A DNA stretch of 64,000 bases, taken from positions 10,812,163-10,876,162 of the forward strand of contig NC_088297.1 of assembly GCF_032854445.1 (NCBI RefSeq), given 5' to 3'. Shown here in pieces: positions 14,374 to 51,700 of this stretch. Source of the stretch: Liolophura sinensis. Its lineage: Eukaryota > Mollusca > Polyplacophora > Chitonida > Chitonidae. Under the pieces are notes generated by a model. That model worked only from the letters and a program-made list of their open reading frames with translations. It did no database searches and was not told the origin of the DNA. The translations under genes and the position numbers were made by a program. The stretch's first letter is position 1. Every line of letters starts with the position of its first letter.

Positions 14374-17300
14374 TCTGACTATATCGGCCACGGAGGCAGA
14401 CAAATGTGCTGTACTGTCTTTCAGTAGAGCCTCTTCATGAGGACAATAGGATGTGCTTCGCTGCTGCGGGAATCTTGTACTCCGTGAATGGTCTGCCGAT
14501 ATGAGTACTGCGAGAAATCTCATCTTTGGAAGCTGCTGATCTGCGGATTTGAGAAGATTGCTCAGCAAATCTGTTCTGGGTAAAATCAAAGGACAATCGA
14601 TTAACATTCTCATCAATATTGAATACCAATACAGTGCTGACCACCATGGTACTATAACAATACCACAGATTCTTTCAGATTCTACTTTCTGTAGAACTCT
14701 GCCCAGAAAGTCAAATTGTGGAAAGGCATAGAACAATCTCCCTTCCCAACATGTAGTAAATGGGCTTACAGATTCTGACCCGTGGTCTGGTTTTCAAGAG
14801 AGATACAGCTTGATTTGAAAATTTAGCCTACCTGCAAATCGATCGACTTCTGGAAAGGAAAAGTTTTTACATATTACATCGAAAGAGCGAGGATTTAATT
14901 TCCACTCTAAATTATCATGTGGAGATCTCCTGGATTTATCAGTTTCAATATTATCAACTCCTGGGAGGTAGTTTGCAGTTAACCAAAATTGTCTTTCATT
15001 GACACCAAAGCAAAATATCCCTTGTGGTATTATTGCAGTGCTGTTTCCTATCCCCCATTTTGTTAATGTAGGCAACAGTTGTAGAATTGTCAGACAAAAG
15101 AATATGAACATCAGTTTGTTTTTTTACAAAGAGACTGAATAGCTAACCTAGCTTCCAATAGTTCCTTTACATTAATGTGTAAAGGCCGTTCTTCTGCCGA
15201 CCGTATTCCACTAGTTTTTACATTTCTGCAGTTAGTTAGTGACGACAGTTAGTGTGGGGACAGCTCTAGAGATACGATTATATGATAAACGGTTACTATC
15301 ACTCCACCACTTAATGTCATCGACACAATCCACAGTTAATGTTACCTTAGCATCAAAATCTTCCTGATTAATAGCTGAGCAATGAGTTTTAAAATTGTCA
15401 CACCTCCAATAATACAGATTGCCATATTGTACACCTGGGAATGCAGCCACTATTTTGCCAATTAGCTCAGGAACCGTCCCGATAGTGATTTTAACCATAT
15501 CCAAAACCTGACAAAAAACTTTAAAATCATATACCTTTTTCAAAGTCAGTCTCAGGGTCATGTCAGTGGAGTCCAACACAAAGTTGATATACACTGGGGA
15601 CTTTGTAGGGTTTAAAACAGATTTCTCACGATGTACAAAGCATCCCAACTTGGCAGACAGCTCTATTGTATCAGAAACACTGTCTCAACAATCTTGTTGG
15701 GTTGCACGAGATATGAAACAGTCATCTATAAAATTAGTGACCAGGAGACCTCGTTTTCTCGATAGTGAAAAAATAACTTTGGTGAGTTCAGTCAAACTCA
15801 CTGGAGTAGAAGCTATGCCATTTGGCGGATAAGCATGTTATAATCCCTTTTTATCCCTTTTTATTTAATGTTGTCCAGCCTATGGAAGCCATAAAACAAT
15901 TCGGAGACATTAAATTTAATGTTGTCCAGTCTATGGAAGCCATAAAACAATTCGGAGACATTAAATTTAATGTTGTCCAGTCTATGGAAGCCATAAAACA
16001 ATTCGGGAACATTAATTTTAATGTTGTCCAGTCTATGGAAGCCATAAAACAATTCGGGGACATTACATTTAATGTTGTCCAGTCTATGGAAGCCATAAAA
16101 GAATTCGGGAACATTAAATTTAATGTTGTCCAGTCTATGGAAGCCATAAAACAATTCGGGGACATTAAAGTTAATGTTGTCCAGTCTATGGAAGCCATAA
16201 AACAATTCGGAGACATTAAATTTAATGTTGTCCAGTCTATGGAAGCCATAAAACAATTCGGAGACATTAAATTTAATGTTGTCCAGTCTATGGAAGCCAT
16301 AAAACAATTCGGGAACATTAAATTTAATGTTGTCCAGTCTATGGAAGCCATAAAACAATTCGGGGACATTAAAGTTAATGTTGTCCAGTCTATGGAAGCC
16401 ATAAAACAATTCGGAGACATTAAATTTAATGTTGTCCAGTCTATGGAAGCCATAAAACAATTCGGAGACATTAAATTTAATGTTGTCCAGTCTATGGAAG
16501 CCATAAAACAATTCGGAGACATTAAATTTAATGTTGTCCAGTCTATGGAAGCCATAAAACAATTCGGGAACATTAAAGTTAATGTTGTCCAGTCTATGGA
16601 AGCCATAAAACAATTCGGAGACATTAAATTTAATGTTGTCCAGTTTAAGCCATAAAACAATTCGGAGACATTAAATTTAATGTTGTCCAGTCTATGGAAG
16701 CCATAAAACAATTGGGGGACATTAAATTTAATGTTGTCCAGTCTATGGAGGCCATAAAACAATTCGGGGACATTAAATTTAATGTTGTCCGAGGTGCCTC
16801 CATCTTGAAATGGCGGTATGTGTCATAATCATTTAATGACTTTAAATCTAGAAATGATTCAACCTCTTCATAACAAGTTTGTTCAATAACTCCCTTTTAT
16901 TATAAATTTTGAATTTCAGCACCACTATGTTTGCATTTCTCTTTAGAAAACTTATAAGGAGTTGGAGCCAGATTCTGTGATGGAGTAATATTAAACTCGA
17001 TCATATAAACACACGTTACCTACAAGATGTGTTAATTAGGAGTTAAGCTCTTCCAAAATTCGACACAATCTCTTAGTTTTCCAGCTTTAAGTTCACTCAT
17101 TTTCACTTGCAGAGAAGCATTGGTATTAGCCAAATAATGCTTGCAAGCATGGTCAGATAGACATACCTTGCGTTTATTTATTTCGGAGATCTCTTGTCAT
17201 GTTTCCTTCTTTTCTCCCAGTTTGAGCGCTATGGGCCGTTCTTTTTCCCGTAGAGGTTTGTCGGCTGACCCCTGTAAGCCAGGCTGTGGGACTGACGACC

Positions 17301-26453: not shown

Positions 26454-29400
26454 TTAGTCTAGTTTTGAAGGCGAGACACACTGCCCCTTGCCTCTTGTCT
26501 TACACTTGCAAATATACAGCCTTCCGCCGTCACATTCACTCAGCTCCTGTGTCATTCTCATCGTCGAGCGCTGATACTTCATGAACACACAATGCTTCTG
26601 GGCGTTCTCGGTCGAGCTAGACGACTGACGGCCGTGACGGTAGAAGGTGGAGGGGGATTGGGAATTACTGAAGAAGCTGCTCATCACCGGCATGTCGGTG
26701 TCACCCCACACCAGAGGTCGTCCAGTGATGTCATTCGCCCCTGACCAATAGCCTGCGTTGTTGTAATCTGAAAGATGTTCAAAGAGAGCAACAAACGTGA
26801 TTTGTTTTTGACGAAATGCTGTGCAGGTTGCCTATGCTTTAATGCCGCCCATATGGTGCACGTGATAACGATGTTGGGTGACTGAACCAGCAAATAGTGT
26901 TTTCTTGGAATTATCGTATCAGAAAGAATTTGTTCTAGATACGTATACTATTTACACATTCACGACTTATTCCACTAGTGCTTAGCGCCGTGCTCAGTAT
27001 TTTTTCAGTTATCAGCTTTATAGGTAAGTGGATGAAATGAGATTACCCGGAGTAAAGGCGCATACAGCGGGCTGTGTTGATGCCTTATAGCCAATATACG
27101 GAACAATAGCGGTTGGGTGATGAAGTGAATTACTTTGAAGAGACGTCATCCCTAAAAACCAATTAAATCAATCTAGTTAAAATGAAATCAAAGGTAAATG
27201 ACTGTATATTCATAAACATCTAACTTATACGGCTCAATAAGGTTGGTGGTTTACCCAGGTTTTGGTTTCCAGCAAACCAGCAAAAAAGCTGAATTCGAGC
27301 ATGCGACATCCTTTGTGAAGGGCCGACTGGCTGCTGCCTAAACGATGCCTTAGTGCTTAGTGATCTATGCAATGAAGTAAGTCACATCTCTGTTACCATC
27401 GCACGTTACGAAATATATCCATGTAGATGAGAGGCTGTGGTTTTCAAAGCCACATCACTAAAAGAGAAATACAATACATATTCCGCCATGGGGAAATAAA
27501 CGTACAGCACGAAAGTAAACCCCTATTAAGGTAGTTATTGATACTCTCCACCCTGTGTAAAAACAGCCACCTTCTTACTAGCATGTCTCCTATAGCTCAA
27601 TCGGTTGAATAACTCGTCTGGACAGGATTTTATGTGGATGGGAACAGACCAACTCCCTGTGTGTGACACATATTTGCTTACCGGTACTTTTTAACTCAGT
27701 TCAGTGGGAGAGGTGAGGAGTTTGATGACCACGTGTCTGTATACCAGACTGGGTTCTCATACCAGATCCGTCCAGCCGCTTGGGTGTGGCACATGTTTGC
27801 TTACCTTTCGACTCAGTGAGAGAAGTGAGGAGTTTGATGACCACGTGTCAGTATACCAGACTGGGTTCTCATACCAGATCAGTCCAGCCGCCTGGGTGTG
27901 GCACATGTTTGCTTACCTTTCGACTCAGTGAGAGAGGTGAGGAGTTTGATGACCACGTGTCTCTACTCGACCGGGTTCTCGTACCAGATCAGTCCAGCCG
28001 CTTGGGTGTGGCACATGTTTGCTTACATTTCGTCTCATTGAGAGAGGTGAGGAATTTGATGACCACGTGTCTATACTCGACCGGGTTCTCGTACCGGATC
28101 AGTCCAGTCGCCTCGGCGTGGCAAATGTTTGCTTACCTTTCGACTCAGTGAGAGAGGTGAGGAGTTTGATGAATACGTGTCTGTATACCAGACTGGGCCC
28201 TCAAGCCAGACCAGTCCAGTTGCCTTGGGGTGATACATGTTTGCTTACCTTTCGACTCATTGAGAGAAGTGAGGAGTTTGATGACCGTGTGTCTATACTC
28301 GACCGGGTTCTCGTACCAGATCAGGTCAGCCCCCTGGGTGTGGCATTCCTCTCGGGCCTCGTACCACGACTTTACTTCCTTCATAATCCGGTAACAGGCA
28401 AAGGTGGGGCGGTGCATGTAGAACTCTGACGGGCATGACTTGATGTCTACCAACAGAAGCAGATTATAATGTGTATAGAATATTTGGTGATGTTTTTGAC
28501 TGAGACCGACTTTTAGTGCGCGCAACATGGTTTGAATTATTGTTGTTGTTGTTGTTTTTCATTAATGCTTACAGTGAACACAAAGTTTGCCAATATGTAT
28601 ACCTACAAAAAAAGAAGTGAGCCTCAAAAAAATAGTTTTAAAAATTTGAAAGTTTTGAAAGTCGCGAAGATGGAAATCAACATTGGGGATAGAGAACTGA
28701 GAGACAAATCTCTCCACGTAGCCATGTTGTAAAAGCTCCTTTGGACTTCGTCGTAATATTTTGGCTGTGACGTCAAAACACTGCTCAGTTCATGATTCGT
28801 CTTCATAGATTTGCTGACATTTTGACATTTGCCAAAAAAAATTGGATTTGGAGGTTAGTTTCAATGTTAAACCGAAGCATATTAGTCCAACTGGACAGTC
28901 ATGCATGTATGCCGCACTGAGAGCGGCTGTGTCACAATGCCTAAACGTTGGGTGGGTAAGCTGTGAGGGCGAGTTCTGCAGCTGGCAACAAGTCCGCTTC
29001 AAGGTCTCCAATGCCTGAGAAACAGAAGATTTCACTCTATAACTGTTTGCTTTGCGAAGCCTTAGTTTTAAGGAAAATGTCCTCCCAACATCGACAGGAA
29101 AGAAGTTTCCAAATAAAAAGGTCCTACTATGTAGGTAAGATGGGCGCGCAGGAACATACCTGTAGGAATAGACACGTTATCAGATCAGACCACATGTGGT
29201 AAGAATCTGATCAGCTATGTAGGTAAGATGGGCGCGCAGGAACATACCTGCAGGAATAGACACGTTATTCCCCGGGAGAAGGCCCTGCAAAACAAAATGT
29301 GGTAAGAATCTGATCAGCTATGTAGGTAAGATGGGCGCGCAGGAACATACCTGTAGGAATAGACACGTTATTCCCCGGGAAAAGGCCCTGCTATGTAGGT

Positions 29401-32400
29401 AAGATGGGCGCGCAGGAATATACCTGTAGGAATAGACACGTTGTTCCCCGGGAAAAAGTCCCTGCAAAACAAAATGTGGTAAGAATCTGATCAGCTATGT
29501 AGGTAAGATGGGCGCGCAGGAACATACCTGCAGGAATAGACATGTTATTCCCCGGGAAAAGGCCCTGCAAAACAAAATGTGGTAGGAATCTGATCAGCTA
29601 TGTAGGTAAGATGGGCGCGCAGGAACATACCTGCAGGAACAGACACGTTATTCCCCGGGAGAAGGCCCTGCAAAACAAAATGTGGTAAGAATCTGATCAG
29701 CTATGTAGGTAAGATGGGCGCGCAGGAACATACCTGTAGGAATAGACACGTTATTCCCCGGGAGAAGGCCCTGCAAAACAAAATGTGGTAAGAATCTGAT
29801 CAGCTATGTAGGTAAGATGGGCGCGCAGGAACATACCTGCAGGAATAGACACGTTATTCCCCTGGAGAAGGCCCTGCAAAACAAAATGTGGTAAGAATCT
29901 GATCAGCTATGTAGGTAAGATGGGCGCGCAGGAACATACCTGCAGGAATAGACACGTTATTCCCCTGGAGAAGGCCCTGCAAAACAAAATGTGGTAAGAA
30001 TCTGATCAGCTATGTAGGTAAAATGGGCGCGCAGGAACATACCTGCAGGAATAGACACGTTATTCCCCGGGAGAAGGCCCTGCAAAACAAAATGTGGTAA
30101 GAATCTGATTAGCTATGTAGGTAAGATGGGCGCGCAGGAACATACCTGCAGGAATAGACACGTTATTCCCCGGGAAAAGGCCCTGCAAAACAAAATGTGG
30201 TAAGAATCTGATCAGCTATGTAGGTAAGATGGGCGCGCAGGAACATACCTGCAGGAATAGACACGTTATTCCCCGGGAGAAGGCCCTGCAAAACAAAATG
30301 TGGTAAGAATCTGATCAGCTATGTAGGTAAGATGGGCGCGCAGGAACATACCTGCAGGAATAGACACGTTATTCCCCGGGAGAAGGCCCTGCAAAACAAA
30401 ATGTGGTAAGAATCTGATCAGCTATGTAGGTAAGATGGGCGCGCAGGAACATACCTGTAGGAATAGACACGTTATTCCCCGGGAGAAGGCCCTGCAAAAC
30501 AAAATGTGGTAAGAATCTGATCAGCTATGTAGGTAAGATGGGCGCGCAGGAACATACCTGCAGGAATAGACACGTTATTCCCCGGGAGAAGGCCCTGCAA
30601 AACAAAATGTGGTAAGAATCTGATCAGCTATGTAGGTAAGATGGGCGCGCAGGAACATACCTGCAGGAATAGACACGTTATTCCCCGGGAGAAGGCCCTG
30701 CAAAACAAAATGTGGTAAGAATCTGATCAGCTATGTAGGTAAGATGGGCGCGCAGGAACATACCTGCAGGAATAGACACGTTATTCCCCGGGAGAAGGCC
30801 CTGCAAAACAAAATGTGGTAAGAATCTGATCAGCTATGTAGGTAAGATGGGCGCGCAGGAACATACCTGTAGGAATAGACACGTTATTCCCCGGGAGAAG
30901 GCCCTGCAAAACAAAATGTGGTAAGAATCTGATCAGCTATGTAGGTAAAATGGGCGCGCAGGAACATACCTGCAGGAATAGACACGTTATTCCCCTGGAG
31001 AAGGCCCTGCAAAACAAAATGTGGTAAGAATCTGATCAGCTATGTAGGTAAGATGGGCGCGCAGGAACATACCTGCAGGAATAGACACGTTATTCCCCGG
31101 GAGAAGGCCCTGCAAAACAAAATGTGGTAAGAATCTGATCAGCTATGTAGGTAAGATGGGCGCGCAGGAACATACCTGCAGGAATAGACACGTTATTCCC
31201 CGGGAGAAGGCCCTGCAAAACAAAATGTGGTAAGAATCTGATCAGCTATGTAGGTAAGATGGGCGCGCAGGAACATACCTGCAGGAATAGACACGCTATT
31301 CCCCGGGAGAAGGCCCTGCAAAACAAAATGTGGTAAGAATCTGATCAGCTATGTAGGTAAGATGGGCGCGCAGGAACATACCTGTAGGAATAGACACGTT
31401 ATTCCCCGGGAAAAGGCCATGCAAAACAAAATGTGGTAAGAATCTGATCAGCTATGTAGGTAAGATGGGCGCGCAGGAACATACCTGTAGGAATAGACAC
31501 GTTATTCCCCGGGAAAAGGCCCTGCAAAACAAAATGTGGTAAGAATCTGATCAGCTATGTAGGTAAGATGGGCGCGCAGGAACATACCTGCAGGAATAGA
31601 CACGTTATTCCCCGGGAAAGGGCATGCAAAACAAAATGTGGTAGGAATCTGATCAGCTATGTAGGTAAGATGGGCGCGCCCAGAAAAATCAACACTACAC
31701 ACTTCAACAAAACAGTAAGTTTTTTCAATGTAGGACAAAGGATTGGTAACTTCACTGTGACCTATAAGCCTTATGCAATGTCGCTTCTTGGTCCCGGGAA
31801 CGACCTATTTCTATTGTATTATGAGGGAGATAATATCAGCTTGGCTCTGGTAGTGAAATTTAAGCAGATACAAGATTGTTTGTAAGTCCAGGCGTAATTC
31901 AGAGAAGTTTCTTTGCATGACTGCTTTGGGGCACTCTGTTTTCCACCACACATAAATATGACGGTCGGTGTATCAGCGGTAAATTCAACAGCAATGAAAT
32001 AAATAAATAACTGGACCTAGCATTAAGTAGGGCTCGTTCATCATTTGTATTCAGTCTAATCAGAAAGGTGGTATATACTGGTAATAATGATCCGCTAGTG
32101 ACATCGAGTTACCATGGAAACAAATTTAGCCAAAGCGTTGGAAAGAAATATTTTGTCTTTTGAATTCTACTCAAAAGTATAATAGACTACATGAGTCAAT
32201 CTTTCTGAAATGATGTCAATCTCATTTACTAAAAACAACAACTTGTTGGTGGGGTATTAAGGGTAATTGATATTTTATTATGTTGTTTTCAAAATGAACT
32301 GTATATCCTTGTTCTTTGTTAAAATTTTTAAATGTTGTAACGTGCTATATGACACACACGCTGACATAATTTATCATCTAATACATGTATTTTATTTAAC

Positions 32401-33237
32401 ACGACAGAGTAGGCAGAGCCTAAAGCGTTAATTCTCTCAGCCAATTACATGTGTAAGTTCGCTACAACCACGCGTAGTAATTAACGAAAACATAAAGAGC
32501 GACAGGAAGTGGATATCTTGATCCAGGACCATTCCGGAAATAATCCGCATATGCCTTTACCGTATTTCATTTCAAATTTGGGACACCTGGTCTGCTTGTT
32601 TTAGCCAATATATATGTAATTCTAGCAGGAATATTGGGTTTCTTTTTTCTCACAAGGTTAGACCATCTAATGAACATACTCATACCTTTACTTTTCCACA
32701 GGGCTGGAAAAAGAAATGTAATATTCTACTTTCAACACTTCCAATATCCATGCCAGTTGTCGGCGTACATTAAGTGCTAGAACTTCTCCATTTACTTGTG
32801 TAGCATTAATACTGGACATGTAATGGTTAGAGCCCTATGGGGACTACATGTATGAAGTCGCGTTGACCTTGTTAGCTAAGAAAACTGAACAATATACAGA
32901 GAACAAAAACACAAGGCGGACCAAGTGATAGTGAACATTCGTTTTTCTTCACTTTAAGGAAATATTTATTCATTATTATTATAAGCTGGGGATACCAAAC
33001 TTTGAAATTTACAAAGACTTTGCTTTTGTTGTTACTGAAATATATATATTCTAATAAACTCACCACCGCAATGGAAATATGAGTTCCTCGTAGACTAAGG
33101 TATATACTTACGTCTGTGGATAAAGCTTCCGAACTGTCGACTCTGTTCGAAAGTGACGACAGAGACAGTCCGCTGGACACTGGGTTGGTGAATGCCAACA
33201 CAGCCACACCGCACAGGAAGGGCGTTCTCAGCGCCAT
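26454..33237 (-). CDS. Secreted C-type lectin-domain protein, four exons
   Basis: Exons: 33237-33112 (126 nt; signal peptide MALRTPFLCGVAVLAFTNP), one 37-nt mini-exon chosen from the tandem array at 29129-31676 (for example 31521-31485 or 31315-31279), 28446-28249 (198 nt), and 26767-26454 (314 nt, stop TAA). With exactly one mini-exon the phases join (0, 0 to 1, 1, 1) and give 675 nt, that is 224 residues. Exon 3 starts the C-type lectin domain (IKSCPSEFYMHRPTFACYRI, cysteines 59, 72, 89; SWYEAREECHTQGADLIW). Exon 4 finishes it (YWSGANDITGRPLVWGD, KHCVF, YICKC; cysteines near 180, 199, 207). Canonical EPN/QPD and WND calcium-sugar motifs are not evident, so ligand binding is uncertain. Intron 3 holds a 111-bp array of the exon 3 donor end. 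The frame is intact throughout. Confidence 0.85.
26768..27689. other. Intron 3 of the lectin gene, remainder
   Basis: No further exon was recognised. The acceptor of exon 4 (ACATCTTTCAG) is at the 26768 side. Confidence 0.6.
27690..28248 (-). repeat. 111-bp tandem array of the exon 3 end and its splice donor
   Basis: Five diverged copies of 111 bp directly downstream of lectin exon 3, with markers GATGACCACGTGTCT near 27729, 27840, 27952 and 28063 and a variant near 28174; the exon itself supplies the sixth. Each unit carries the last third of the exon and a GTAAGCAAAC donor. No acceptor precedes each copy. Reading through into the first copy meets an in-frame TGA, so the copies are decoy donors rather than extra exons. 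Confidence 0.9.
29129..31676 (-). repeat. 103-bp tandem array, each unit carrying a 37-nt mini-exon
   Basis: About 26 starts of CTATGTAGGTAAGATGGGCG (plus-strand view); about 23 units are complete. On the minus strand each complete unit reads branch-like CTGAT, a pyrimidine-rich CATTTTGTTTTGCAG acceptor, a 37-nt exon, and a GTATGT donor, leaving 66-nt introns. The exon encodes GLLPGNNVSIPA plus the first base of the next codon. Variants are GLF (AAAAGG units), Q for P (CCTGGAG units), T for A (CTGTAGG units), M for V (29550 region) and S for the second N (31293 region). Units near 31415 and 31620 have lost the acceptor AG (GCAT), and those near 29150 and 29340 are truncated. It lies between lectin exons 1 and 3. 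Confidence 0.95.
31677..33111. other. Intron 1 of the lectin gene
   Basis: Lies between the signal-peptide exon and the mini-exon array. No additional exon or repeat was recognised apart from AT-rich sequence. Confidence 0.6.
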
Positions 33238-33708
33238 GTTGCACAGCTTTCTGCAGGCGGAGGTATGTCTGGAATAGGTTTTACAAGTCCTCTTACTAAC
33301 AGGTTTTAGAAATCTATGACTGACGTAGTGTAAAAAAATTAACCACTTGCCCTACTGAAGTTATAAATATATAACTATCGGTTTTATCGAACGCTGGTTA
33401 ATGTATAGATGACGAGGTATTCACGATAAAATAAAAACGGTAGAAAGTCTCAGCTGGTGATCTGAGAAACTGTAACTGGTACTACTTAAGAACACGGATG
33501 TATTCAGATGTGATGAGGCAAACTGTATGCAGAAGACATATACATTACAAAAGTAGTTCGTGCACGCATAACTTCATGTTCGAAACGGCCCATAAACCAA
33601 TGGGATATCGCCAGGCTTGTCTTCAAAATAAGAAAGATATGCCGGTTCTCAATAAAATGTGTAAGTATGCATACGACCTCATTTTCTGTTTGTTTGTCAT
33701 TCATTTGT

Positions 33709-33835
33709 TTATTTATTTGATTGGTGTTTTGGGCCGCACTCAAGAATATTTCGCTTATACGACGGCGGCCAGCACTATGGTAGGAGGAAACCCACGATCA
33801 TCCGCAGGTTGCTATCAGACCTTCCCGTGTACGAC
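33709..33835 (-). mobile_element. SINE family A, truncated (first of a tandem pair)
   Basis: Antisense tail and body (GTTTTGGGCCGCACTCAAG to ATCCGCAGGTTGC). It is followed directly by a second copy. Confidence 0.85.
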
Positions 33836-33843
33836 GTTTGAAT

Positions 33844-34002
33844 TATTTATTTATTTATTTATTTAACTGGTATTTTAGGCCGTACTCAAGAATATTTCAC
33901 TTATACGACGGTGGCTATCATTATGGTGTGAGGAAGCTCGCAGAGCCCAGGGGAAAACCGCAACCATCCGCAGGTTGCCGAGAGACCTTCCCTCGTGTGA
34001 TG
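33844..34002 (-). mobile_element. SINE family A, truncated (second of a tandem pair)
   Basis: Antisense copy starting with (TTTA)n. GTTTGAATTA and GTTTGAATAA flank it, a probable target duplication. Confidence 0.83.
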
Positions 34003-34637: not shown

Positions 34638-34809
34638 CTTTGGAATCCGTGATGAGGATGACCAAATCTCCTGTACTCCTCCATCGTGTCGAACCAGATC
34701 AAGTCTCCACCCTGGCTCTCTCTCCCTGGTACCAAGACTTCTCCTCACCCATAATGCGTTAGCACGACTTCGTCTTCAGGTTGACGTAAAACTTAGGCGG
34801 ACTCAGTAT
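34638..34809 (-). pseudogene. C-type lectin exon 3 pseudo-exon
   Basis: Diverged copy of lectin exon 3: acceptor TGTGTTGACAG, then SPPKFYVNLKTKSC, stop (TAA where the functional gene has a Tyr codon), RIMGEEKSWYQ. A frameshift follows before GGDLIWFD-like sequence. The donor is AT instead of GT, and the exon is 26 nt shorter than the functional one. Confidence 0.78.
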
Positions 34810-41007: not shown

Positions 41008-42661
41008 AACTGACGGCCGAAAGAAACTTTACAAAGAGTTCAAATCAATTTATTTTGACAAGGCAAAAACCAGGATAATGCAAGGTTAATATATTTAAAA
41101 GACCAGTGACTTTTAATATTGAAAGTCATGAGCGAGAACGGACAAAGCAGCGCTCAAATCATTTTACAAGTGAACAAACAGAGCAGGGGTAGAAAAATAC
41201 CCATTCCATCTTGGTTAACAATGGGCAGAGTATACTTGATTATACTTGAGTATACTTGAAAGTTGATTATTTTTAAAATCAGTCAATATAAAAATAAATC
41301 GATATTGCGTGTGGCCACCCCTTGCTTCAATGCATGCAAGAACTCCCCAACGTATAGAAAGAGTCAGTCGTCTGATGAGATGGCGTGGGATTCGTTGCCA
41401 TTCATCCTGGATGGCGAACGCCAGTTTTTGTCAGTTGGCTGCGGTATATTTCTCGTAAGAAGCCTCCATACAAAATAGGTCACCAAAAAATGTGTGGTAC
41501 GGAACGTAGAAGAGAAAATGTATCAATAAAAAGCAAACACAGAGAGTGAAATAACAGATAGTTGGCAAATTTTCACGCCTATCCGGTTGAAAGGGCCCTG
41601 GGTGTGGTATCAATGTGAGCCACCCATGCCCACTGTGTCCAGGAGACTCATGGCTCAAGGAATTAGGGCCTATCGACCTTTCAGAGGGCAGCTGTTAACA
41701 GCCGAACATCGTCGCCAGAGGTTGCGATGAGCTCGAATTGTACGCTGTTGGCAGCGACGTGATTGGCAGGGTGTTGTTTTCACGGATGAAAGCCACTTCT
41801 GCCTGTTCCGAGCCGATGGCAGACGACGAGTTTACTGTCGAACAGGCGAACGAACGGCTGCATCATGCGTCCAGGAGGTGGTACAGTTTGGTGGCGGCAG
41901 CGTGATGGTATGGGGTGGGATTTGTGGAGAGGAACGGACACCACTGGTCACCATCTACGGGAACCTAACAGCTCAACGTTACGTGGATGAAATTCTACGT
42001 CCTGTTGTCCTGCCATTCCTTCAACAAAAGCCAGGTGGTGTCCTGTACCAGCATGACAACGCCAGACCTCATACAGCTCGAGTTGTGCAGAACTTCCTGG
42101 ACGCCAATGAAGTCAACCTCTTGCCGTGACCCGCACGTTCCCCAGATATGTCCCCCATAGCACACCCGTGGGATTTCATGGGTCGTCGAGTAAGACAAGG
42201 GCCACACCTTGCAGCCAACCGACAAGAAATGGTGTTCGCTATCAAGGATGAATGGCAACGAATCCCACGCCATCTCATCAGACGACTGACTCTTTCTATA
42301 CGTCGGGGAGTTTTTGCATGCATTAAAGCAAGGGGTGGCCACACGCGATATTGATTGTTGTTCTGGAGTCAATCGAGGCATTACTTTGGGTTTTTTTTAG
42401 TCAGTGTGCAAGTCCAGCACACTGTGAGTAACGTTTTTATACACTTATTATATGGCAGTTGCGGCCATCAATGGGTCACGTGATTTTTCAACTTTCTTCG
42501 TTGTCTGAAAATAAATTCGTGTGGGCGTATATGACACTTGTTGCACATGGGAATGTGCTTCGTACAATGTTTTCCTACAATAATTTTGTATTAATTTGCT
42601 GAAAAAAAAGGCTGGTTAAATTTAACTCACGGAGTTGTAAAGTTTCTTTTGGCCGTCAGTT
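41008..42661. mobile_element. Tc1/mariner-like transposon copy 2, internally rearranged
   Basis: Same inverted-repeat ends as copy 1 (AACTGACGGCCGAAAGAAAC at the left), flanked by TA (41006-41007, 42662-42663). The left 430 bp and right 300 bp match copy 1 in the same orientation. The transposase body (about 41568-42356) is inverted relative to copy 1 and reads on the plus strand (FGGGSVMVWGGICGEERTP, RVVQNFLDANEVNLLP, then SPIAHPWDFMGRRVRQGPH). The last 140 bp of the transposase exists twice as an inverted pair (41302-41441 and 42217-42356). A 120-bp foreign segment lies at the first junction (41442-41561). The transposase has stops (for example TGA after NLLP) and is inactive. Confidence 0.85.
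41442..41561. repeat. 120-bp dispersed repeat, copy 1
   Basis: Begins CGGTATATTTCTCGTAAG and ends ATAACAGATAG. A copy of about 118 bp is at 43919-44036. It sits at the rearrangement junction of the Tc1-like element. Confidence 0.88.
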
Positions 42662-44667: not shown

Positions 44668-45703
44668 CAGAGAGAGGAAGTGCCAGGTCGGTTCTTCTCG
44701 ACTCTGCTCTTACAGATATACCCTTTGTCAGAGTCACACTCACACCACACCGGAGTCATCCTAATAGTGGAGACTTCAAACTTGGTGAACACACAGTGTT
44801 TTGTTCAGGTGGCTGCAGAAGGGCCCACAGTAGGTCTCTTGTGTCGCATTATACGACCCCAGAAATCAATGCTGTCAGAATGATCGACACGTTTAGGTTT
44901 ATCCACTTCGGAGAACCAGCCCATAACCCTGCTACTGCTCTCTCCCCACGCCAAATGGTCTCCATTGATGCCATTTGCTACCGACAAATACCCAGAATTG
45001 CTGAAATCTTCTAGTTGTTTCTTACAATGAAGTAGTTTTACCATAAGATCTGTAAGATCCCTCATTTGTCAAATGTCTGATACTACTAAGAAAAGCTACG
45101 GGAAAGAACCGATATATAACATAGTTTGATACTTAAATCATACCTATTAGACATCGTATTAATTTGACACGGATAAAGGCGCTGTTCGAGAAATAATTCG
45201 TGCCTACCAAACTCACTCACTGTCCACTGTCTTCCACCAGCTCTTGAAAGAGTTATTTAAAGATTACTAGTATTCAGAAAACTTCATGTCAAAATTTGAA
45301 GGTAATGATGAATAAATTTATTAACATAAAATCGCTAAAAAAGTTTTTTTGAAATTGTGAGGGTAGCAGATAAGTAGCATACGGACTCTCCCATAGGGCA
45401 TTACTGAAAGGATAACATTTGCTATGTGATACTTTACGTTAAATCCTCGTCAGTCATCGTTTGACCTGTACTAAAATCATTATTTATAATGAAGAAAGAG
45501 ATTCTAACCGTTGGACTCCGCGATGAGAGTAAGGAGTTGGATGACCACGTGCCTGTACGCCTCCATCGTGTTCTACCAGATCAGGTCTCCCTGGCTCTAA
45601 CAGTCCACCTGGGCCTGGTACCAAGACTTCTTCTCACCCATAATGCAGTAACACAAATTCGACTTCCGGTTGATGTAAAACTTGGAAGGACACGGTTCTG
45701 TAT
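44668..45703 (-). pseudogene. C-type lectin pseudogene (exons 3 and 4)
   Basis: Exon 3-like 45703-45509 (195 nt): acceptor CCCTTCAG, EPCPSKFYINRKSNLCYCIM then GEKKSWYQAQVDC, with TAG in place of the following codon, SQGDLIW, a second TAG, NTMEAYRHVVIQLLTLIAES, donor GTTAG. Exon 4-like 45000-44668: NSGYLSVANGINGDHLAWGE, an in-frame TGA at 44807-44805, then TKHCVFTKFEVSTIRMTPVW and CECDSDKGYICKSRVEKN to a TGA stop at 44670-44668. The exon 4 phase does not match the functional gene at its 5' end. Three nonsense codons and a phase error mark it as dead, although the remaining frame is well preserved. No signal-peptide or mini-exon partner was found. Confidence 0.82.
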
Positions 45704-47080
45704 CTGAAGGGAACACAACAACACAGCTAGTTGGACTCGCTTGTTATGTTTTCAACATGCATGCAGCGGTATTGCCCTTTATTCTCGCCTTGGCTTAGTT
45801 CTTTGTCAATAAGGTGTCGACTCGAATCGTGTTCGAATCGACCTCTCGCTTATGAGGTTCGCCACGTTTCCACCGGATTTCCACGGTGTCAACAACCACA
45901 ACAACTAATAACCACTATGGCCCAGTGTCAGCAATAGTGGTTAATTCCTTCGCCATACGTATAAGGCCAAGTAGGGTAAAATGGAGACTGTTAAGACGAC
46001 AATGCTGCAAAGATGGGTGTCCTGTGATCAGACTTGTTTGTAAATCTTCCAGTAATTAGATGGGCGCTGTAAGCACTCGGTCTTCGACACTGCGGAAAAT
46101 TATATATGTATTGTTGAAGAATTGTTGCATTTTTATTGTAACTCCAAACGTAGTACTGTAGTCTTTCTTGTCTTTTAATCTGTGAATAGTTTTGGTTTGG
46201 TCTCTAAATATCCAAAGCTGCTTTTTTCAACTTTACGCGCACTGATCAGTCAAACCATTATAGCTTAGCGATCTTGAAGTAGAACAACATGCCGGGAAGG
46301 TCAGCTGTGAGCAGTATCATGCAGCGATTAACAATAGCACTTAGTCACGCATCCCTCTCTGAACAAAGTTACTCATTTATACGTGAAAAAAAAAACTCAC
46401 TGTCCTTGACCTTAAAAAAGAATATTCTAAATGGGTGTAGCCAAATATAGATGAACTCTTGTGTGTCCTTTAGTATATTGATATGGATATGAACAACCTG
46501 GCTTACAGGTAAGATGCTACACGGTGGGGTTGTGAAAGGTTAGGAGTTTCATGCACTAACACTGTTTATGTATACATTTTTATTTACTGGTTTACTGGGA
46601 ATTGAAGGAATTAGTCGACAATTGACATGTTTGTTAACATATATCGAGATTCATTTAGATATAGTCAATATTTTGATACATGCACTGCACTACGCAGCAA
46701 CCTACAACGTTAGACAGTAGAAACGACACTTGTTGTCGATAAGGCCCAGTGAACAGTAAGAGCGGCAAGTGCCACAAATTGCCGAAGGCCAGAACTAAGC
46801 CTGCACCTCATGTTTTCAAACGAGTGAATTTATTGATATGATTACTGTTTAGCGCCACACTCAAGAATTTTCCACTTATACTATGCCAGTAAGTTTTATG
46901 GGTAGAAGGATGGCAATGTAAACCACCGACCTTTGGTAAGTTAAAGACAATCTTTTTGACGTGTAAAGTACAGATATGCACACCATACTGCGCGAAGCCC
47001 AGTGCTTTTCAACAAATGTTATAGTCTACCCAACTGACCGCTTATTGTCATCAAAGCCACATCATTATCATTATAGACAG
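45704..47080. other. Intergenic, no gene seen
   Basis: A weak SINE-A-like tail in antisense lies near 46838-46900. No exon was recognised. Confidence 0.5.
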
Positions 47081-47440: not shown

Positions 47441-48788
47441 AAGCGAAACTCAGATAAATGTTTTGATAATCGACAACTTATAAACTAGCATTGTCCACGA
47501 TCTGAATACTCATTTCATTCAATCAGATAGATGATACCTTGCTACTTTATCATTGAAAACGAAAACTTATCTTATTTTTCCTACTTCATATAATCTCTTA
47601 CCTCTTCAGTAGTTTGTGTTTGATTTTCTTTTTTGGGAATTGTTGTGCGATTATTAACAGCTAGTATACAAATGTCTGTTTTGGTGTTTAGATCCACAAA
47701 TTCTCTGTCAAATGCGAGAAAGATCCAGAATCTCGTGTCTCCTAGCAATGACCCGCCCTCATATTACTCTGTTATATCTCTTGGATGTATGCGTGGGTGC
47801 ATATATAGACCAGCCCCCCCTGCCCGGCTTCTCCTGTCCACAGACGCAGATTACAGCCAGCCAACCGTAATGTCAGTAGCAATATATTAGCCATATATAT
47901 ATAACTCTGCATGCATGAGGGACCTTCTGCACAAGGGAGTTATTTCCAACCCGAAACTCCTCTGTTGCTTAAACATTGTGTCAGTGTGTTGTTATGGTTG
48001 GCTGGCTGTGATTACCTTCGCAGGAGAGGATATGGACAGTGCACAGGCTGTTAGGGTTAGTTGGCTGTGATGCCCTTCTCAAAACAGGATATAGACAGTA
48101 CACGGGCTGCTACGGCTGTGACGGTTGTCTGACTGTACACAGAGCTAAGTTGCACAGGGTGTGGCTACGTTGGAAGTGACCGTCCGGCTGCATTTAAGTA
48201 AGTTAAAATGTTAGATAAATTTAGATATATTCTAGTTCCACTACGTATTGTATAGTCAGTTGCCTTTAGTCAGAGAACATATAACCATACTCCAATAGTT
48301 TTCGCCTTTTGTGACGGCGGTCAGTTTTCAGGGTGGAGAAAAACCTTCCTGTGCTAAACCACCAAACTACACTGATGAACTTTTCCACGTGTGGCGTACA
48401 GATATGAACACCGTAATAGTCGCTGACCACTTAATATTACCATAGACTAATGAACTTTGAGAGCTACAAATTATATAACGTCTATGAGGAAATCGTAAGG
48501 GATATGACTTACGAAGACCTGTAAAAATTGGCCCCTGGCCATTGCGAGTTTGTGTCTGAAGGTGCAAGAGATAAGCTTGGATGTACGGTCTACTTTTTAT
48601 CACCATACTGCCATCGACAAAAAAGCGTTTAGACGTCATTTTCTCGAGAACAGTGAATACATCTGTGCTGATATTTAATATGTAGATAGACCACGCACGT
48701 GGTAACTTCCTATTGCAGAAACCACATTTATATCTTGGAAACTCACAATCAGTAGTCAAGTGTACTCTTCACTCTTCCAGAAAACACA
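47441..48788. other. 5' flank of the right MOXD1-like gene
   Basis: No exon, SINE or clear promoter element was identified. A palindromic-looking TGTGATTACCTTCGCAGGA/TGTGATGCCCTTCTCAAAA pair (about 48008-48090) suggests a short imperfect duplication. Confidence 0.45.
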
Positions 48789-51700
48789 ATGATGGTGATT
48801 AGAGTCTGCGTTTTGATACTTTCTCTCGTATTCTTGACCCACGGGCACGATCATGCCGAGCCATACTCGCCCCTCCCCAACACTGCAATCTTTGACCCGG
48901 ACAACAAGTACCACATGGCATGGGACTTCGATGACGAGTTCATAAGGTTCAAAGTAACTGTGGAGACCCGGGGCTACATCGGAGTGGGGTTCTCTCCAAA
49001 TGGCGGTATGAAGGGTTCGGATATAGTCATCGGCTGGGTGGACGACGTCACTGGTCAGGGGTACCTGTCTGTAAGTGTACATTACGTTGCAAACATTAAG
49101 AGGAGCTTAATCTGCGTACAGGCTAAATGAAAGCTTCATAAAGGAGAAGGTGATGAGAGGATGTTCATTATCAGGCTTCATAAAAGCTTCACAAAGGAGG
49201 CAACAAAAAGAGGCCATGCATTACCTTGTGTTAGATATAGGCATCATAAAGGATAGAAGGATAAGACATTCATTAGCTTCATAAATAAAACAGGCTTTAC
49301 AAATGTTTCGTAAAGGACGAAATGATTAGTAGACATTTACTTATAATAGATTCCGTGAAGTACATGTTTCATAAAGGAATAACCGACGGGACAACTATTT
49401 CCGGATAATTGTGTTCGTAAAGCATAGAAGTAGATCACAAGCTAAATTCTACCACAAATAGATTTATTAGACCTACACCAAATCCTCATTTACATGCACA
49501 AATTAAATATACTAATAGGATAGAGAGGTCTGAAATATCCAACCATACAAAAATTATTTTCAAACATCCTTTTCCCCTTAAAGCAATTCTAAATAAATTT
49601 TAGTTTTTCAAATAACGTGTCAGACATATATCATTACGGAAACATAATTTTTGTGTTTTCTCTCTCTTTAATCGCAACCCAATAACAATAACTGAATTCG
49701 CATAATTAATTAATTAATTAATCAATAATTTACTTTCCAGGATCGTCACGCCGTAGGTCACTCTGAGCCTCTGGTAGACGCCAGTCAGGACTACACTCTC
49801 CATTACAGTCATCAGAACGGCACCCACACCGTTCTACAGATCAGCCGTAAACTACAACTGTGCGGAGACGAAGATCACTTTCTGACGGTAGCCACTGCAG
49901 ATAAAACCAATATTTAATCTAACCGTTAACACTGGAGATGTATCACACGAAAACCTCTTTGAAACTGCAAAATTAATCTGTTAATTTTGACAGACTGTCA
50001 GTTGTCTGAGTGATGCTAGAATGTATTCTGCTATTACAGCGGATTGTTCTGTTAAATATGACACACACGTTCTGTTAATTCAACATAAAGATTCTATTAG
50101 ACTAACAGGATACTATGTTGAACATTACAGAATATTATGTTATATAAACAGAATACATTCTAGTATAACTCAGATTAATAGCTGGGCTGACTTAAGCAAC
50201 CAAACCCAACACTGTGATAATTTATTAATTATCTGTCATAAAGGCAAAGAACTCACTAACATAATGTACAGGGCAGGTGAAAGATCATTAAATATTGTCC
50301 GGGAAAACAGTTATGTTTTAGAATATTTTTCGATGTACAAAAATACATTTAAAACTTTGGATTCTAATGAAAGTATTTCAGGCCAGATATACTGCTGTGA
50401 CGTCACTGGCACCCTTCTGGTTCCCGACAGACCGAATCCTGTGTTTTAGATGCATTTAGTCGGGTCAAAAAAAAATAAATAAAACCATTTTCCTTGACAG
50501 TGTCTAATGGTCTTTCAACTGAGAAATACTTTATTTTAGTGTTTTCTTTGTCTTTAGTATTCAGTAGAATTTATGTATTTACATTTGTGTAATGCACCTG
50601 GCGTAACTTCCATGGTAGTTCACACTGAAGAGATACGTTACCATGGCAAATGCGCTTGACAGAGTGTAGATTTATAAAATAAGCCCCGGGCCCTGGGATC
50701 ATAAAGTCATTTAAGACTTCAGTCAAAATTTCAGTCATTAAATTTGGTATCTTCCTTTCCGTTGTTTTAGCTGAACTTTGTTGTACAATAACTTACCCAG
50801 AATTTATGTGGTGAAGCCATATTTTGCCCTTGTTACATAAGAAATAACAATCTTAAAGTGATTTGAAATTTTGGCGTAAGTCTAACATTGCTGCGTGATC
50901 CCGGGGCCAGAACTGATTTGTTTCAAAAGTTCGATGACTGATGTTGCTGTCTCCGAGTCGAATGATTTTTGTCTCATTCGAGGTAACTCTTTTATGATTG
51001 TGGATTCCGTAAAACGCCAATCAAGTAAATGAATAAGTAAATAAATAAATAAATCCATTCCAAGGATGAAACCGTACGCCTGATATGGGCGTATAGTGAC
51101 GTGGATCCCTCAAAAGATGGCTCTATCCGATACCATGGTACTAACCGGGGAAACAAAAACATGTACCTACTGAACGCTAGGCCCCAAGAACCACCTTCTT
51201 CGGCCAACATGTTTTACGAAGACTACCTCAACCCTCAGGTAGGTTGATTATTTTCTATCGATTTCTGTCGATAATCAATGACAGTAGTCCATAATCAAAA
51301 TGATATGGTCATTCAAAAATAAGTAGCATTCGACTTCCAAGTCAATCTCGTGAGAGGGACGGGATTTTGGGAGTATTGCCAACAGATTTCTACACTTTAC
51401 ACTAGATTTTGAAGAGGAAACAGTGACAGACCGTCTCGCCATTCGTTACCCTTACTTTCAAACTCCCGTGGCTCTCACGAGATTACCGTGGCAGTCGAAT
51501 CCCGCTTATTGGTGAATGACGTTATTATATGTTATTTATGCATCGCGCAGCTTGACTTGGAAATAACCTCAGAAAAGGCACTGACTCTCAATACGTCCAT
51601 AATTTAAAGAATTCCAGCGTTTATTGCTACAAAGTCCCACGAGCAAATACAAATTTCCTGGCCAAGGCCGGGTTTGAACCAGCGCCACCAGTGAGATATC

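Follow-up and report, generated by a model that had tools for sequence, protein, structure and literature searches.

Tandem exon duplication and clusters of mutually exclusive exons are well known. In the well-studied clusters from which one exon of many is chosen, the exons have diverged, so that a preference for sequence is hard to separate from a preference for position. Here, we focus on a locus whose competing exons are near-identical. In a window of 64,000 nucleotides (nt) of the chiton Liolophura sinensis (RefSeq assembly GCF_032854445.1, NC_088297.1, positions 10,812,163 to 10,876,162; all positions below are counted within this window), a gene encoding a protein with a C-type lectin-like domain carries an array of tandem units between its exons 1 and 3 on the minus strand, each unit built around the same 37-nt mini-exon. 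As far as the combinations were computed, one copy of this mini-exon, and only one, is productive.

The exon clusters 4, 6, 9 and 17 of insect Dscam reach up to 48 variants, of which one copy enters each messenger RNA (mRNA) (PMC1397879). The chiton locus resembles them as a tandem exon array of comparable copy number. Unlike Dscam, as described in the part of that source available to us, its units are near-identical, the exon measures 37 nt, each repeat includes its 66-nt intron, and the scan for docking sequences found none. The candidate branch sites, which lie 24, 37 and 48 nt from the donor and so below ~50 nt, recall the OGDH 4a/4b exons; alpha-tropomyosin, in the reference list of the same account, belongs to the same type of pair with the branch point near the donor (PMC7969005). 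In contrast to such pairs, the spacing here would block neighbours only, next-but-one units being 169 nt apart. Schistosome micro-exon genes also combine very small exons with secreted products, but those exons are described as symmetrical, whereas the chiton exon of 3n+1 nt is usable once only (PMC4350168). In Tetrahymena, arrays of 90-bp leucine-rich repeat exons likewise consist of uniform exon/intron units, for which unequal crossing over has been proposed; these exons are used serially, three per protein repeat, unlike the single usable chiton exon (PMC6564038). Perlucin of Haliotis laevigata is also a C-type lectin from a mollusc and has short repeats that vary in number, although its 10-residue repeats are C-terminal and number 0, 5 or 8, and no exon is mentioned in the available part of the account (PMC4019660). 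Earthworm metallothionein genes carry a first-intron minisatellite, and one clone also duplicates the fourth exon, but the repeats are not said, in the part of the source at hand, to hold an exon (PMC12783039). The duplicated fourth exons were not found in earthworm transcripts, which calls for caution, as the copies in the chiton array need not be used either (PMC12783039). Further work on tandem and mutually exclusive exons includes case studies (PMC9013439) and PMC6071210. Within the literature searched, covered as titles and beginnings of abstracts, there was no description of a minisatellite that consists of complete exons and contributes a single one of them. The locus can probably be regarded as a variant of tandem exon duplication with the frame properties of a mutually exclusive cluster, and appears to be a new combination of near-identical units, a 37-nt exon of 3n+1 length, introns within the unit and sister genes in the same genome that have the exon once.

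The original prediction, made from the letters of the window alone, was that of a 37-nt exon amplified together with its own splice sites, and this is borne out. A search with the core of the exon recovers 24 exon bodies on the minus strand, starting from 31624 down to 29284, with one additional fragment (Table 1). Tandem Repeats Finder reports 22.2 copies of 103 bp at 29390-31679 with 98% matches, a 73-bp step at 29317-29465 and 1.9 further copies at 29194-29391. The introns between adjacent units measure 66 nt, as had been predicted. The claim that every complete unit is intact stands for 20 of the 24 bodies, which are fully equipped with a pyrimidine tract, AG, 37 nt and GTATGT, and falls for the bodies at 31624, 31418, 29461 and 29387. 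All four defective bodies are found within the first three or the last three of the 24, and the fragment lies at the end. With its head-to-tail, near-identical units and degenerate ends, the array has the structure of a minisatellite. A 34-base pattern searched with up to three mismatches through the whole assembly occurs in 26 places, 22 of them in the array and four on another contig, C1, while the reversed control occurs in none; the array is not a chance pattern. In the unbroken run of 20 full units, 19 have an AG acceptor, and there are 12 distinct sequences encoding 8 peptides, the commonest of which (GLLPGNNVSIPA) comes from 8 of the 20. The variants L/F, P/Q, A/T, N/S and V/M were all correctly predicted, as was the loss of the NVS sequon in one unit (31315-31279); I/V is found in addition. 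On the plus strand, opposite the array edge and the intron, there is an open frame at 31460-31885, the last 71 residues of which have no Pfam match.

A DNA search of the assembly with one unit gives, outside the array, one 75-base match in each of four loci at C1 79.82-79.98 Mb, and searches with exon 1 and exon 3 recover the same four. Fetched with their flanks, these loci (L005-L008), closely similar and in mixed orientation, proved to be copies of the window gene, introns included. Each has a single 37-nt exon in the same place with the same AG and GTATGT, and the 34-base pattern reveals no further mini-exon copies outside the array and these loci. The 24 bodies in the window gene, which is the copy on C3, thus stand against one per paralog (n=4), which identifies the array as a tandem exon duplication. 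Because the four paralogs carry the exon once and in the same place, the mini-exon is, judged by comparison of the DNA, a real exon, and the array is private to the C3 copy in this assembly. Three of the four paralogs encode a protein of 224 residues; in L007, a 35-nt deletion in exon 4 ends the protein after 142 residues. With the mini-exon omitted, a stop follows residue 63 in each of the four. The mini-exons of the paralogs are identical to the array majority at 32-33 of 37 positions, which is no better than the nearby intron, and for this reason sequence conservation is not used as an argument.

The reading frame would provide the constraint on copy number. The 37 nt of the mini-exon amount to 3n+1, and each of the 20 units tested (31521 to 29564, including 31418 despite its lost acceptor) yields 224 residues when included alone, with the C3 frame intact over 675 nt. 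This supports the phase arithmetic and the gene model that had been proposed. With no copy, exon 1 joined directly to exon 3 gives 63 residues and then a stop. The expectation that two units would bring an early stop was also correct: when units are combined in their order along the gene, each of the 190 pairs, 1140 triples and 4845 quadruples stops after 60 residues, quadruples being the largest combinations computed. Similar length and phase, splice sites shared by 20 of the 24 bodies, and joint inclusion that is unproductive through quadruples are the frame features of a mutually exclusive cluster. A scan of L005-L008 for single open 3n+1 cassettes between exons 1 and 3 (9-220 nt, simple splice rules) returned 2, 1, 1 and 1 candidates, and only the mini-exon was common to them. 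The frame would therefore require the mini-exon, barring two other cassettes acting together, since the scan took single cassettes only. An alternative AG...GT stretch near 32703 was rejected; it measures 18 nt here and 20 nt in the four paralogs, and neither length closes the frame.

Exon 1 holds the start codon, a signal-peptide-like N-terminus and an N-terminal segment, while exon 3 encodes the first half of the C-type lectin-like domain. The paralogs are identical to the window gene at 115-116 of 126 positions in exon 1 and, each of them, at 192 of 198 in exon 3; over the four exons, L005 agrees at 644 of 675 positions. Against Pfam PF00059, the one-copy product scores 23.5 bits, a narrow pass of the curated cut-off of 22.6, and its PDB matches include mannose-receptor and NKG2-D chains. 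EPN/QPD and WND are the usual sugar-binding motifs of C-type lectins, and none is present in the translated protein. Because these motifs are absent, the predicted product is named lectin-like and sugar binding is not claimed. Computed across the full coding sequence, the ratio of nonsynonymous to synonymous substitution rates (dN/dS, or omega) of the window gene comes to 0.47 against L005, 0.43 against L006 and 0.46 against L008, with L007 excluded for its exon 4 deletion. Intron 1 diverges from the paralogs by 9.8-9.9% outside gaps and exon 1 by 7.9-8.7%. With omega at 0.43-0.47 against three paralogs and intron 1 divergence of 9.8%, the C3 gene looks maintained. Elsewhere in the window lie remains of related lectin-like genes, at 45501-45719 and 44703-45044 on the minus strand and as a fragment at 34670-34800; identity is ~50% to exon 3 and 37% to exon 4, and there are in-frame stops. 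Upstream of exon 1, at 33698-33995, two adjacent stretches match ~23 other places in the window at ~70-96% identity, in the manner of a short interspersed repeat.

Comparison with the paralogs also indicates how the array arose. Their mini-exon lies between TGATCAAATTCC...TTTTGCAG on the upstream side and GTATGTGTGC on the downstream side. Behind every exon of the array comes GTATGTTCCT, and next the same sequence that is found ahead of the first unit. Each repeat thus takes in ~56 nt of the intron ahead of the exon, with branch site, pyrimidine tract and AG, then the exon itself, and ~10 nt of the intron behind it, with the donor, which is why the introns between units measure 66 nt. In the assembly DNA searches, the 28 bases at the donor-side start of the query unit have no match outside the array, and ~93 nt to the left of the array (31680-31772) have no second copy. 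About 535 nt of the downstream intron of the paralogs is without a counterpart in the window gene. The ends of the array have mostly kept the ancestral state. All four paralogs have T as base 7 of the exon, and so do units 31624, 31521 and 31418, which are the first three, and three of the last four (29564, 29461 and 29387), but only one of the 17 core units (30182). Similarly, the CCTAC of L005 and L006 is retained in units 31624 and 29564, while the other tract-bearing units have CTTAC. A homogeneous core flanked by ends that are mostly ancestral and in part broken suggests that the array expanded from within. Twice in this family, the edge of an exon has become part of a tandem repeat: a second array, built on the tail of exon 3 and its donor, is present in all five genes, and that of the mini-exon only on C3. 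Counting exon 3's own, the second array has 5 donors in the window gene and 6, 6, 7 and 7 in L005-L008, its copy number thus varying between sister genes. Tandem repeats are frequent throughout the window, whose 64 kb give 51 repeat-finder rows, several of which overlap. One of its repeats, 18 copies of 51 bp at 15863-16790, is open in one plus and two minus frames (281, 323 and 269 residues from stop to stop).

Whether splicing itself could hold each transcript to one copy depends in part on spacing. Profile matches in this genome to kinesin (132) and myosin (81) allowed 70 introns to be estimated, with a minimum of 165, a median of 591 and none below 100 nt; eight profile hits exceed the span by 42, 45, 48, 147, 171, 231, 393 and 402, and those with 42, 45 and 48 may be loops or short introns. 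By these estimates, a 66-nt intron is unusually short for this genome. The branch-like sites named above match YTNAY, which is absent from the matching 66 nt of L005 and L008, and all three fall under the threshold of ~50 nt between branch point and donor cited for mutually exclusive exons (PMC7969005). Joining of neighbouring units would therefore be unlikely. The 169-nt intron from one unit to the next but one is within the observed range (minimum 165), and because of this spacing alone cannot be expected to secure one copy. The suggestion that the 66-nt introns block adjacent joins is thus reasonable, but it does not extend to enforcing one exon per mRNA. It is the early stop that would enforce exactly one copy at the level of protein, through the frame and not through spacing alone. 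Duplexes between flanks and units, scanned for a docking site in windows that stopped short of the array edge, were no stronger than those that the array-free introns of L005 and L008 form with the unit (best -34.4 for these introns vs -32.6). The complementarity of TGGGCGCGC at the array edge to GCGCGCCCA in the unit was given no weight, GCGCGC being palindromic and part of the unit. At the donor of the unit, a GCAGG/CCUGC hairpin is predicted at -7.1 kcal/mol (-4.8 for the A variant; the paralog, at -2.8, lacks this hairpin), and the predicted openness of the 20 array donors (0.0001-0.005) is below that of the four paralogs (0.0074-0.0135). The exon 1 donor of the window gene is also predicted to be mostly closed (0.008). 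If 20 copies were included independently of one another, the fraction of transcripts with exactly one would not exceed 0.377, reached at 5% per copy, from which it follows as a hypothesis that weak copies would be an advantage.

Diversity among the units was assessed on 20 full units, from which unit 31624 (102 bp) was excluded along with two exon changes found there alone. Six of 37 exon sites and four of 66 intron sites are variable (Fisher p 0.16), and nucleotide diversity (pi) is 0.035 in the exon and 0.007 in the intron. All six exon changes are nonsynonymous, for which the chance probability is 0.12-0.14 under simple mutation models. Neither the Fisher test nor the nonsynonymous excess is a significant sign of diversifying change in these units, and the diversity would be compatible with neutrality as well as with mild selection.

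We consider the array to be, with a probability of about 0.7, a runaway minisatellite amplification of a minimal splicing cassette, tolerated since any one copy suffices. Its starting points are read directly from the DNA: the anatomy, the homology, the frame outcomes, the amplification on C3 only, and the mostly ancestral ends with their derived core. From these, we infer the part played by splicing, decay, tolerance and the cause of copy choice. The ancestral gene would have been like the four paralogs, in which a single 37-nt exon connects the signal exon with the lectin-like domain. The exon, together with ~56 nt of the intron before it and ~10 nt of the intron after it, would have undergone a tandem duplication in the C3 copy, and unequal exchange or replication slippage would then have expanded the array internally to ~24 copies. 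Any intact single copy would restore the frame, whereas none, or two to four, would lead to an early stop. The gene could tolerate the array while a useful share of its transcripts takes one copy, with nonsense-mediated decay presumably clearing the remainder. Copy choice would probably be set by transcription order together with weak, hairpin-covered donors, and not by a dedicated selector. Of the two alternatives left by the original prediction, runaway duplication is favoured over a diversification device because of the homogeneous core, the mostly ancestral and partly broken ends, the single-copy paralogs and the lack of a significant exon or amino-acid excess. Several points weigh against this reading. 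The division into edge and core has exceptions, as the T at 30182 lies in the core, while C and CTTAC, both derived, occur in unit 29284, the last that is intact. The higher pi of the exon than of the intron is compatible with selection for variety. The omega values are pairwise, so that constraint is not assignable to the C3 branch or to any one copy. Finally, efficient recognition of the units would lead to many multi-copy transcripts and a nearly silent gene, and the array could mark a gene in decay.

That last point is also the basis of an alternative that we hold to be unlikely, in which splicing noise has largely disabled the C3 gene, most transcripts taking zero or several copies and decaying, and the intact state of the frame being only recent. 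Up to 19 downstream acceptors would rival exon 3 for the donor of the used unit, and in the independent-inclusion model with 20 copies the productive fraction never exceeds 0.377. Sister L007 with its exon 4 deletion and the broken relative at 44.7-45.7 kb would fit such a fate, but the C3 frame is intact over its whole length and diverges less than intron 1. Somewhat less likely still is that many weak copies sum to adequate inclusion, the donor hairpin weakening each and copy number compensating. The hairpin, a donor openness below that of all four paralogs and the existence of an optimum at 5% per copy are in agreement with this, although they are predictions only, splicing is poorly foretold by how naked RNA folds, and the exon 1 donor is likewise predicted to be mostly closed.

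A mutually exclusive cluster selected to diversify a sequon-bearing linker strikes us as improbable. It would offer ~20 choices and 8 versions of a 12-residue segment between the N-terminal segment and the lectin-like domain. The 8 peptides from 20 units, the exclusively nonsynonymous exon variants, the excess of exon over intron pi and the variant that abolishes the sequon all speak for it. The differences, however, concern single residues or a few, neither test is significant, 8 of the 20 units give the same peptide, the paralogs manage without an array, and no docking site stands out against the array-free introns of the two paralogs scanned. As for the view that the 37-nt element is no exon but an intronic satellite with fortuitous splice-like motifs, its conservation no better than that of the nearby intron (32-33 of 37; intron 1 divergence 9.8%) is what would be expected, but none of the five genes keeps its frame when exons 1 and 3 are joined directly, and the scan, which took single cassettes, found no other that the paralogs share, which makes it very improbable. 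Doubtful to the same degree as the diversified linker is a working one-of-twenty choice among near-identical exons without selectors, in which copy number itself regulates. If true, the number of units and the strength of their shared donor hairpin would set the exactly-one fraction, and a minisatellite of variable length would act as an inherited control of how much lectin is made and how varied its linker is.

With ~20 competitors bearing virtually identical splice signals, single-copy sisters and marker bases in some of the units, the locus allows one to ask how the spliceosome chooses by position and how a gene persists after an exon that it needs has turned into a minisatellite. It also raises the question of whether frame and decay are enough for mutually exclusive behaviour before dedicated control evolves, and may represent an early stage in the passage of a duplicated exon to an exclusive cluster.

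Table 1. Features of the lectin-like gene and its arrays (positions in the window)
Feature	Position	Strand	Details
Exon 1	33112..33237	minus	126 nt, 42 codons; ends in phase 0, donor gtaagt
Mini-exon array	29127..31680	minus	mostly 103-bp units; 24 exon bodies and one fragment
Edge exon body	31588..31624	minus	acceptor AG lost; 102-bp unit
First fully equipped mini-exon in transcription order	31485..31521	minus	37 nt, GLFPGNNVSIPT
Run of 20 full 103-bp units	29528..31521	minus	exon starts 31521 to 29564, step 103
Exon body with acceptor AT in place of AG	31382..31418	minus	
38-nt exon body	29424..29461	minus	donor GTATAT; would break the frame
Exon body without branch site and pyrimidine tract	29351..29387	minus	73-bp unit
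Twentieth fully equipped mini-exon	29248..29284	minus	past the truncated unit
25th body, 3' fragment	29160..29180	minus	with donor, without acceptor; from sequence
Exon 3	28249..28446	minus	198 nt; starts needing 1 nt; donor gtaagc
Second array	27701..28345	minus	exon 3 tail and GTAAGC donor, 110-bp unit
Exon 4	26454..26767	minus	314 nt; remaining lectin-like domain through stop codon

Apart from these features, the window contains an open frame with a DOMON domain at 48756-49130 on the plus strand (E 1.5e-14). Outside the window, contig C8 of the assembly has eight consecutive hemocyanin beta-sandwich matches, in keeping with a molluscan genome. Two related open frames, at 583-1005 on the minus strand and at 41731-42129 on the plus strand, are by eye putative transposase fragments.

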